The translations under genes and the position numbers were made by a program. This document shows positions 53,128 through 55,661 of a stretch of DNA of 64,000 bases, in pieces. Below the pieces are notes generated by a model, which was not told the DNA's origin, made no database searches, and saw only the letters and a program-made list of their open reading frames with translations. Each line of letters opens with the position of its first letter. Position 1 is the stretch's first letter. The DNA comes from Cohnella kolymensis (GTDB lineage: Bacteria > Bacillota > Bacilli > Paenibacillales > Paenibacillaceae): positions 1-64,000 of the forward strand of contig NZ_JXAL01000006.1 in NCBI RefSeq assembly GCF_000829465.1, given 5' to 3'.

Positions 53128-53720
53128 TTAATTTACTCCCCTAACTTCCTGCCTCACAGAGCCTATACTCACCTTTTCATTCAATACTGGGTCGCGATAA
53201 TAAACTGGATTCTTAATCGTTTTTCTTCGCATGATGATAACAATAACCGCTACTAAGATAATGCAAATTGCTAATAGCTGCGAAATTCTTATATTCTTGG
53301 TGCCTCCTGATTCACAAAATTGCCCCAACGACCCATCATTTGCCCTGCAATGAGCCCCGGTGCACAAATATCGGCGATTCGTAAGAAAGAATGCCCTTTA
53401 CGACGAGTATAGATTATCCCAGCCAATATCGCTCCAATTAAAGCTCCATAAATAGCGATTCCACCATGCCAGATCTGTATGATTTCAATGGGATTATGAC
53501 GATACTGCTCCCACTCAAAAGCAACATAATAGAGCCGGGCACCAATGAGAGCGGATGGTAGTCCAATCAAAAGTAAGTCAAAAAAGAAATCTTGAGAAAT
53601 GCCAAACCGCTTGCCTTCACGAATTGCCAGTAAAAGACCAAGCAAAGCACCAATAGCGATTATGATTCCATACCAATGAACTTCAAGAGGGCCAACTGCG
53701 ATCGCAATAGGATTTAGCAT
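53128..53720 (-). pseudogene. lgt: Prolipoprotein diacylglyceryl transferase remnant (internal deletion)
   Basis: The N-terminal part is normal: LNPIAIAVGPLEVHWYGIIIAIGALLG, GARLYYVAFEW, GGIAIYGALIGA and the catalytic GRWGNFVNQEA. After NQEA it stops within five codons. The next frame resumes in the last helix (RISQLLAICIILVAVIVIIMRRK) and ends at 53128. About 80-90 residues, including the usual HPTFLYE region, are missing, so this is a deletion, not a single-base error. A second, intact lgt must exist elsewhere. Unusual AT content suggests recent arrival or decay. Confidence 0.85.
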
Positions 53721-53873
53721 TGTAAATATAGCATTCCCTTCATAATACATAGTGTAAGACTACGATGCGTTGGCGTGAATACTTGTTTATCTTAACATGT
53801 TTTAACATCAATTTGCTCAGTAAGAAGTGTACTCCGCACAGGCCATCCTCTCCATCATCTTCATTCATCAGCA

Positions 53874-53921: not shown

Positions 53922-53997
53922 AATGTTCGGAAATATAATAAAATTTATTTAATAATGCAGAACAATACCATTATTGTATGAGTAAAAAACGAACATT
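53922..53997. promoter_or_regulatory. PurBox-like sites before purine riboswitch
   Basis: On the minus strand, ATTTCCGAACATT (53922-53934) fits the PurR PurBox pattern AWWWCCGAACWWT exactly. On the plus strand, AATGCAGAACAAT (53954-53966) and AAAAACGAACATT (53985-53997) fit with two and one mismatch. The first two face each other as in known inverted PurBox pairs. PurR is not in this window. Confidence 0.6.
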
Positions 53998-54012
53998 TGA
54001 ATGAAAGTACCC

Positions 54013-54041
54013 TTGACTTGTGCGTATAAATGGTTTACTCT
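54013..54041 (+). promoter_or_regulatory. Probable promoter of riboswitch transcript
   Basis: TTGACT and a weak TACTCT are 17 bases apart, about 32 bases before the aptamer. Confidence 0.4.
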
Positions 54042-54072
54042 ACGGAATGGCATGATCATAAACGAATGAATT

Positions 54073-54182
54073 CATCCATCGTATATCCTCGGCAATATGG
54101 GCCGAGAGTCTCTACCAGGAGCCGCAAATTCCTGACTACGAAGGATGTGGGACACCCACACCCTTCGGCAGTCGGGATTTTT
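54073..54182 (+). promoter_or_regulatory. Purine riboswitch, guanine-type, with overlapping terminator
   Basis: The aptamer fits the purine class. P1 is 54073-54083 with 54137-54147. P2 is CTCGGC/GCCGAG with an AATATGG loop. J2/3 reads AGTCTCTACC. P3 is AGGA/TCCT with a GCCGCAAA-containing loop. J3/1 is GACTAC, and its C at 54136 is the guanine-type specificity base (adenine switches have U). A terminator at 54131-54176, followed by ATTTTT, uses the same 3' strands of P3 and P1. Ligand binding should therefore prevent termination (ON switch), as in adenine pbuE. It directly precedes the FAD dehydrogenase gene. Confidence 0.88.
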
Positions 54183-54227
54183 CCGTTCTTACGGACACGC
54201 GCAAGTTACTCGGGAGGAGCACACAAC

Positions 54228-55661
54228 ATGAACCACTATGATGTGATCGTCGTCGGTGCGGGGCCGGCCGGTATTTTCACATGCTATGAGCTGACAAGAA
54301 AAGCGCCATCCCTTAAGGTGCTCTTAGTTGATAAAGGACACGATATTCATTACCGCCGCTGTCCCATTCTGGAGAACAAAATCGCGCTTTGTCCGCCGCC
54401 TTCCGGCAGAAAGGACTTCGCCGGCTGTCTGCCCGCCTGTTCCATAACCGCGGGTTTCGGCGGAGCAGGCGCCTACAGCGATGGAAAGTTCAATATTACG
54501 ACTGAATTCGGCGGCTGGCTGACGGACTATCTGGCACCCACCCAAGTGATGAGCCTCATCCGCTATGTCGATGAAATCAATCTTGAGCATGGCGCAACAA
54601 TCAACTTGACCGATCCGACCACCGAAGTGGTGAAAAACATCGAGCACCGGGGCTTCGCGGCGGGTTTAAAGCTGCTGCGCGCGCAAGTTCGCCATTTGGG
54701 GACGGAGCAGAATCTTCAGATATTGAAATCTATTTTCGCGTATTTGGATACAAGGATTGAAATGCGGTTCAAGACTGAGGTCGCTGATTTGCTGACCGAC
54801 AAAGTGGACGGCAGCCATCGGGTGCGGGGAATCGTGCTAAAGAATGGGGAGGAGCTGCAGGCTTCCCGGGTGGTGGTCGCTCCCGGCCGGGACGGCTCCG
54901 CTTGGCTGAGCGAAGTGTTGAAGCGCCGGCGTCTGCGGATGTCCAATAATCAGGTGGACGTCGGTGTCCGCGTCGAAACATCCGACGTGGTCATGAGGGA
55001 GATCAACGAGCATTTGTATGAGGGCAAATTCGTCTACAACACCTCGGTAGGCACACGCGTCCGCACATTCTGCAGCAACCCATCGGGGCATGTAGTGGTG
55101 GAGAATCACAGCGGCGTCATGGCCGCCAACGGACATGCGTACAAGGATCCGGCGCTCGGATCCACGAATACGAATTTTGCGCTTCTTGTTTCGCACAAAT
55201 TCACCGAACCTTTCGATAAACCTAATGAGTATGCTCGCGAAATTTGTAAAAGGGCGAACGATTTATCCAGCGGAGGCGTCATTGTGCAGAAATACGGCGA
55301 TATCCTGCGGGGAAGGCGTTCCACCGGCGGCCGGATCAAAGAGGGATTCCTCGAACCCACGCTGAAAGAGGCGGTTCCTGGAGATCTCGGGTTGGTGCTT
55401 CCGTACAATACGATGAGAAGCTTGATCGAGATGGTCGAAGCGCTTGATAAGGTAACGCCGGGGATTGCCTCCGAGCATACGTTGTTCTACGGCGTGGAAG
55501 CCAAATTCTATTCGGCGCGACCCAAGCTGAGTGCAACGCTGGAGACGGAGATCGCCGGCCTCTATTGCGGCGGCGACGGCGCCGGTGTCACCCGCGGCCT
55601 GGCGCAAGCCGGCGCTGCCGGCGTCTGGATCGCGCGTGCAATTACCGATACGCTCGTCTGA
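54228..55661 (+). CDS. FAD-dependent dehydrogenase (COG2509-type), under purine riboswitch
   Basis: About 477 residues. The FAD Rossmann motif is VIVVGAGPAGIFTCYEL (~5-21), followed by a cluster of four Cys (RRCPILENKIALCPPPSG, CLPACS), which may bind a metal or FeS cofactor. Other blocks are GFGGAGAYSDGKFN, GRRSTGGRIKEGFLEPTL and GLYCGGDGAGVTRGLAQAGAAG, the typical FAD C-terminal motif. The start ATG at 54228 follows GGGAGGAG; an upstream extension is only an artefact of the riboswitch. The substrate of this family is unknown. Its control by a guanine-type switch suggests a link to purine or nucleotide redox metabolism. Confidence 0.85.
   Translation: MNHYDVIVVGAGPAGIFTCYELTRKAPSLKVLLVDKGHDIHYRRCPILENKIALCPPPSGRKDFAGCLPACSITAGFGGAGAYSDGKFNITTEFGGWLTDYLAPTQVMSLIRYVDEINLEHGATINLTDPTTEVVKNIEHRGFAAGLKLLRAQVRHLGTEQNLQILKSIFAYLDTRIEMRFKTEVADLLTDKVDGSHRVRGIVLKNGEELQASRVVVAPGRDGSAWLSEVLKRRRLRMSNNQVDVGVRVETSDVVMREINEHLYEGKFVYNTSVGTRVRTFCSNPSGHVVVENHSGVMAANGHAYKDPALGSTNTNFALLVSHKFTEPFDKPNEYAREICKRANDLSSGGVIVQKYGDILRGRRSTGGRIKEGFLEPTLKEAVPGDLGLVLPYNTMRSLIEMVEALDKVTPGIASEHTLFYGVEAKFYSARPKLSATLETEIAGLYCGGDGAGVTRGLAQAGAAGVWIARAITDTLV

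Follow-up and report, generated by a model that had tools for sequence, protein, structure and literature searches.

A gene for an FAD-dependent oxidoreductase in Cohnella kolymensis lies behind PurBox-like sites and a purine aptamer, which raises the question of what a flavoenzyme does under the control of purine supply. We analysed the stretch of DNA that carries this locus (contig NZ_JXAL01000006.1, positions 1 to 64,000; all 64,000 nucleotides are referred to as the window) and compared it with relatives. The reading that we favour, at a probability of about 0.45, is that PurR derepression and guanine together switch on a flavin/four-cysteine enzyme doing the job of GuaC, that is, the conversion of GMP to IMP. 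Comparison of sequences gives the regulatory part of this reading good support, and the enzyme activity is the part that we infer.

A guanine-type aptamer in the leader of the FAD gene

A search with Rfam models identified a purine aptamer (RF00167) at 54059-54158. Its score of 78.1 bits lies above the gathering score of 37, and no other Rfam match in the 64-kb window reached gathering level. The aptamer, of the guanine type, extends over 54073..54143 on the + strand, with P1 at 54079-54083/54137-54141, P2 at 54087-54093/54101-54107, P3 at 54116-54121/54129-54134 and J2/3 at 54108-54115; it scored 84.5 bits with model R1, to whose training set the window belongs. When positions were assigned by the xpt numbering, U22, U47, U51 and C74 were all present, C74 being base 54136, and the junctions were free of insertions, which is the combination that defines guanine-I. 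The Rfam search, which the initial annotation had itself suggested, thus confirmed the guanine-type aptamer described there. In an alignment of 42 rows, 10 of the 19 pairs had changed on both sides, a level reached in none of 500 shuffles; these double-sided changes were confined to P2 and P3, with none in P1, and one extra base near position 54 was found in 3 of the 42 rows. G46-U47, U49-C50-U51-A52-C53 and C74 were kept in 81 of 81 aptamers of the enzyme gene, as was the full J2/3 GTNTCTAC with U47. U24 in J1/2, found in 72 of the 81, was rejected as a special mark of this group, since it also occurs in 11 of 60 control aptamers from the genus. Judged from the sequence, guanine is the best guess for the ligand, with hypoxanthine and xanthine not distinguishable from it. 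The same genome has two further purine aptamers on contig C1, beside a permease gene and guaA as named by eye.

The terminator shares its 5' arm with the aptamer

An intrinsic terminator is located at 54130..54182 (+ strand), with a stem at 54130-54177 and a T run to 54182. Its predicted stability of -31.6 kcal/mol (z -6.2) was matched by none of 200 shuffles, and a consensus scan for promoters and terminators did not report it. The 5' arm of this terminator is formed by P3-3' and P1-3' of the aptamer, and 54073-54186 folded without ligand gave the terminator, with P1 and P3 broken, in agreement with the ON geometry first proposed for this leader. Since the aptamer alone reached -18.9 kcal/mol compared with -31.6 kcal/mol for the terminator, the leader is expected to end up as the terminator except where ligand traps the aptamer while transcription is under way. 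Because the terminator is built from P3-3' and P1-3', ligand binding should allow continued transcription, and an ON switch responding to a guanine-type ligand is in our view highly probable. Both the identity of the ligand and the response in the cell, ON rather than OFF, are predictions of this analysis.

The pbuE adenine riboswitch of B. subtilis also forms its terminator from the aptamer 3' strands and follows ON logic. The window switch has its aptamer fold, terminator origin and ON logic in common with pbuE, but its J3/1 carries the guanine-type C where pbuE has U, and the gene encodes an enzyme instead of an exporter. With the guanine-I switches (xpt, purE, pbuG) it shares the aptamer consensus and the ligand contacts, whereas the predicted direction is opposite and the gene unrelated. 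Guanine-II switches of Paenibacillus, in the passages of PMC9295807 that describe them, are predicted ON switches with insertions in J2/3 and J3/1, mostly before phosphoribosyltransferase genes; guanine, predicted ON logic and Paenibacillus make them similar to the window switch, which lacks these junction insertions and precedes a different gene.

The ON geometry was scored as a hairpin of -12 kcal/mol or less before a T run, with its 5' arm starting at or before C74, a threshold of our own choice. By this test, terminator and aptamer overlapped in the ON manner in the window and in 80 of 80 named orthologues. A cruder version that took early T runs scored 54 of 81 leaders; a version that ignored the start of the terminator arm scored 81 of 81, but it also passed 8 of 13 permease leaders, because it ignored where the arm begins.

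Conservation and spread of the switch

The named orthologues were the best 80 of 375 relatives by enzyme similarity (82-90% identity); their genera included Cohnella, Paenibacillus, Brevibacillus, Saccharibacillus, Fontibacillus and Ammoniphilus, and among these best 80 the closest named relatives of the enzyme were Cohnella. Model R1, which 41 of the 80 had trained and 39 had not, found the aptamer upstream in 80/80, or 81/81 with the window. Independently of R1, Rfam gave 132 purine matches in 37 genomes of the genus, 30 of which precede the enzyme gene: all 30 close copies, one per genome and matched by hand, carry the aptamer upstream, a 31st genome (G167) with only a 30% match being left out of the count. 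The initial annotation had listed a lack of aptamer conservation before orthologues among the findings that would refute it; this was not the case, the aptamer being conserved there in 80/80 named and 30/30 genus copies. Among 61 further loci of the enzyme gene, the aptamer was found in 11 (f1, the family of the window genome, 1/1, f140 5/8, f137 1/1, f144 1/2, f152 3/4) and was absent from the remaining families, including 12 loci of other classes; nor was it found in any of 40 enzyme-gene regions from other classes of the phylum. The enzyme itself is more widespread than its riboswitch: matches were counted in 60 of the 161 class-sample genomes (E up to 1e-90) and in 230 of the 299 phylum-sample genomes (E up to 1e-30). 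At three f152 loci (L258, L261, L266) the aptamer lies close to the Shine-Dalgarno sequence or start codon, no terminator was seen and PurBox-like sites are present upstream; these aptamers perhaps act on translation of the enzyme gene.

For comparison, we fetched 60 of the 102 genus aptamers that do not precede the enzyme gene, and labelled the genes next to them from protein motifs as we recognised them. ON geometry was found in 0/15 purE, 0/7 xpt, 1/13 permease (a weak case, L136), 17/17 small membrane protein, 2/2 8-oxoguanine deaminase, 0/3 phosphoribosyltransferase-like (no terminator found), 0/1 Rieske-like and 1/2 unassigned leaders. The permease label is weakly backed by PF00860 below its cut-off, the deaminase label by NF006055, which was the best match of a 255-residue fragment of L163 and also below cut-off, and family searches gave no fitting family for three other labels. 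From these counts, the genus holds both OFF-type and ON-type copies, and the enzyme gene has the ON type wherever tested.

Several of these loci are of separate interest. A guanine-like ON aptamer precedes the gene of a small membrane protein (MKYLLSVLLGAICYGILSTIV...) at the 17 loci L155, L164, L166, L167, L169-L178 and L180-L182, which L179 resembles; J3/1 seems longer in these aptamers than in guanine-I. The protein is possibly a purine exporter; its first 70 residues gave no transporter family in Pfam. The two aptamers before 8-oxoguanine deaminase (L158, L163) are of the ON type and have J2/3 GCTCTAC, one nucleotide shorter than GTNTCTAC, as would be expected of the known 8-oxoguanine class. 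At L161, an aptamer with GTCTCGACC (U51 to G) precedes what we take to be a Rieske-like oxygenase gene, an arrangement that PMC9295807, in the part concerned, describes for xanthine-II.

PurBox-like sites upstream of a putative promoter

In B. subtilis, PurR controls purA and guaC, and the account of PurR boxes in PMC8789054, as far as it covers these points, gives them as CGAA-centred with a 16-17 bp spacer and repression as lifted by PRPP. The window has a PurBox-like site AATGTTCGGAAAT (AWWGTTCGGWWWT on the + strand) at 53922..53934 on the - strand, a weak half-site AGAACAAT with one mismatch to CGAAC at 53959..53966 (+ strand), and a half-site CGAACATTT at 53990..53998 (+ strand) just upstream of the -35 element of a putative promoter, TTGACT-17-TACTCT, at 54013..54041 (+ strand). 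Read on the other strand, AATGTTCGGAAAT fits the PurBox consensus; the window has half-sites, and nowhere in it do two boxes form the canonical pair spaced by 16-17 bp. The promoter was recognised by eye and was not reported by the consensus scan, and TTGAC was present in 5/5 leaders of relatives examined. Further upstream, at 53289-53750 on the - strand, a 153-aa ORF, presumably prolipoprotein diacylglyceryl transferase-like, ends early after ...NFVNQEAPRI and looks truncated.

Half-boxes, defined as CGAACWW or its complement within 200 bases upstream of the aptamer, were found in 74 of 81 riboswitch leaders against a mean of 6.9 in base shuffles, and spaced PurBox pairs in 7 of 81 against 0.03; half-boxes in forward orientation concentrate some 70-100 nt before the aptamer. 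Of the enzyme gene's leaders elsewhere in the class, 40 were scored: 28 had half-boxes (4.0 in shuffles) and 13 a spaced pair (0.025). Of 10 guaC leaders 7 had half-boxes (0.9) and 3 spaced pairs (0.0). These results make it likely that PurR controls the enzyme gene in the riboswitch-bearing group, and the window sites are putative binding sites for PurR. The PurR context noted initially is upheld, and the statement made with it, that the downstream gene is not a known purine gene, holds as annotation but not for its control, since the gene is regulated like a purine gene.

The four-cysteine FAD protein

The enzyme gene starts at ATG 54228, behind a Shine-Dalgarno-like GGGAGGAG at 54212..54219 (+ strand), and runs to 55661 on the + strand. 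It encodes 477 aa with an FAD-binding N-terminus (Pfam Pyr_redox_2) followed by PF21688 FAD-depend_C, a putative COG2509 member, which is also the label that the initial annotation gave it. Four cysteines, C45 (54360), C55 (54390), C67 (54426) and C71 (54438), form a conserved motif encoded at 54360..54440 (+ strand). None of them varies among the 28 rows of alignment A3, made of the window protein plus 27 homologues (45-85% identity), and a separate alignment of 34 rows retains them in at least 33. The FAD enzyme with a four-cysteine cluster noted initially is likewise supported. The motif is probably a metal or Fe-S site that would feed electrons to FAD. An AlphaFold prediction for the window protein with 27 of the 80 close relatives had a mean pLDDT of 52. 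In a profile search of the PDB with A3, the sole strong match was VP0956 (3nlc), the nearest protein whose structure is solved (E 6.8e-40 with the profile, 3.9e-23 with the window protein alone), beside two weak matches over parts of the protein. VP0956 is uncharacterised, and no cysteines appear in it where the two proteins align weakly (residues 7-88).

GuaC has an IMPDH-like TIM barrel and no FAD. The ten Pfam matches of the enzyme and the best 25 of its 57 NCBIfam matches include no family of IMPDH or GMP reductase, which sets it apart from GuaC, and an aptamer was found upstream of guaC at none of 10 loci. GuaC, for its part, is PurR-controlled in B. subtilis (PMC8789054, in the portion on PurR targets) and would fill the same metabolic niche as that proposed for the enzyme. 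At L228:1422-1488, a purine aptamer lies just downstream of guaC on the same strand and is followed by an XPRTase gene (1509180-1509743 of the contig).

The enzyme and GuaC do not co-occur in the sampled genomes

GuaC was called by TIGR01306 above its cut-off. In the class sample (161 genomes), GuaC was present in 50 genomes, the enzyme in 60 and both in none, with 18.6 expected; the corresponding numbers were 4, 73 and 0 in the family sample (148 genomes) and 5, 230 and 0 in the phylum sample (299 genomes). The enzyme was found in 80 of the 148 family genomes at E up to 1e-30, and 7 genomes with only a 30-36% match were dropped to give 73; with these restored, the overlap with GuaC was still 0. 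The hypergeometric probability was 1.4e-13 for the class sample, a value that treats genomes as independent, which they are not, and 0.06 for the family sample alone. As a control, xpt was present in 38 of the 60 enzyme genomes against 39.5 expected, with no exclusion.

In the class sample, both genes occur within one family only in f1 and f137, in different genomes, f137 having one genome with the enzyme and one with GuaC; for the most part the exclusion separates whole clades. Within genera, g13 has the enzyme in 11 of 14 genomes and GuaC in exactly the remaining 3 (1 in 364), a trio that may be one event, and g18 has the enzyme in 8 of 14 with a single GuaC genome among the other 6. Neither gene was found in 51 of the 161 class genomes, so the function is dispensable. 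IMPDH-domain matches numbered two or more in 50/50 GuaC genomes and one in the window genome; 55 of the 60 enzyme genomes had one, 4 had two and one (G580) had none at that threshold. In the four with two (G029, G553, G600, G605), the second match is non-GuaC by TIGR01306. Two f140 genomes without the enzyme and without GuaC by TIGR01306 (G481, G570) have two IMPDH-domain matches, unlike most of their relatives.

purA follows the enzyme gene at some loci outside the class

We surveyed the neighbourhood at 40 loci in phylum genomes outside the class ('clostridial' as a working label), which were hand-picked with best matches first and about ten of which are cut by contig ends. purA lies directly downstream of the enzyme gene in 11 of the 40, where it has the same strand and starts 19-97 bases past the tblastn match; in one more (L217) a single gene intervenes. 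These 12 purA-linked loci span 11 GTDB families; none was among the 14 loci most like the window protein (60-74%), and all were among the 26 less similar ones. At the 80 named loci, no neighbour was conserved throughout; the enzyme was recovered as an ORF in 72 of the 80, and a same-strand gene followed within 120 bases in 11 of 71.

Discussion

In the mechanism that we propose, PurR at the PurBoxes would repress the promoter as long as PRPP is not high, high PRPP meaning a shortage of purine nucleotides. Once repression is lifted, the nascent leader would have two ways to fold: as the terminator, or as the aptamer if guanine is bound. The aptamer would hold P1-3' and P3-3' and let polymerase continue. 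The two inputs would form an AND gate open at high PRPP and high guanine, so that the enzyme would be made when guanine is plentiful and purine nucleotides are limiting. It would reduce GMP to IMP, or perform an equivalent guanine-to-hypoxanthine step, through FAD and the four-cysteine Fe-S or metal site, and with IMP at hand PurA could make AMP. We read the reaction as GMP to IMP because PurR boxes, a guanine-type ON switch, the partnership with purA and the replacement of GuaC come together at this gene; both the reaction and the cofactor at the cysteines are putative. A wider claim, which we hold still more tentatively, is that there are two unrelated kinds of GMP reductase. The four-cysteine FAD protein would be the second kind and would prevail in Clostridia and in some of the Bacilli; in Paenibacillales it would stand under an AND gate of PurR and a guanine-I ON switch that serves to turn surplus guanine into adenine nucleotides.

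The same gene arrangement could be read otherwise. A guanine ON switch might precede a catabolic flavoenzyme that oxidises excess hypoxanthine, xanthine or guanine, which would suit the FAD domain and has a parallel in the ON-type xanthine-II aptamers that the relevant part of PMC9295807 places on dioxygenase, allantoinase and xanthine dehydrogenase genes. We consider this unlikely: the PurBoxes, the purA neighbourhood and the absence of GuaC fit salvage better, and no catabolic gene was recognised in the largest neighbour clusters of the 80 and 40 loci, which were read by eye with few family-searched. An ordinary OFF guanine riboswitch with an incidental terminator overlap would agree with the description of guanine-I switches as OFF in the corresponding section of PMC9295807, but an overlap found in 80/80 relatives against 0/22 purE and xpt leaders makes this very improbable.

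The ligand could also be another one. Position 54 is A in 59 of the 81 aptamers and position 73 is G in 49, as if a variant sensed some other purine compound such as a nucleoside or nucleotide derivative; the window, however, has the Rfam consensus letters C54, G72 and A73 and keeps all ligand contacts, and position 73 varies by eye in permease-linked aptamers of the genus too, on which grounds A73G with C54A was discarded as a pocket change and a different purine ligand appears improbable. The members of the 8-oxoguanine riboswitch class reportedly always precede a deaminase gene; a three-stem fold, ON logic and Paenibacillaceae are common to them and the window switch, which stands before a different gene. 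That such a variant class exists (PMC9295807 and PMC11625349, in the parts that treat it) and that both deaminase-linked aptamers (2/2) have ON geometry had made 8-oxoguanine or another oxidised purine a conceivable ligand, with an enzyme that answers oxidative damage, as the initial annotation suggested. This can hardly be upheld, for J2/3 is one nucleotide shorter in L158 and L163, and U47, U51 and C74 are kept in all 81 aptamers of the enzyme gene. The redox-damage role fares no better: the PurR boxes and the purA neighbourhood are ill-suited to damage repair, and together with the lack of co-occurrence with GuaC they point to interconversion from guanine to adenine nucleotides.

To our knowledge, the GMP reductase reaction is known only from the IMPDH fold, and the literature that we searched, with few subscription journals in it, contained no report of an association of this aptamer with the enzyme gene or of a flavin GMP reductase. 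If the GMP-to-IMP reading is right, a flavin route would be added to this reaction, and it would help to account for the conversion of guanine to adenine nucleotides in Firmicutes that lack GuaC. The guanine-I aptamer would have been turned into an activator that is always paired with one gene, beside OFF-type copies in the same genus. A widespread protein without an assigned role, matched in 230 of the 299 phylum-sample genomes, thereby gains a testable function.
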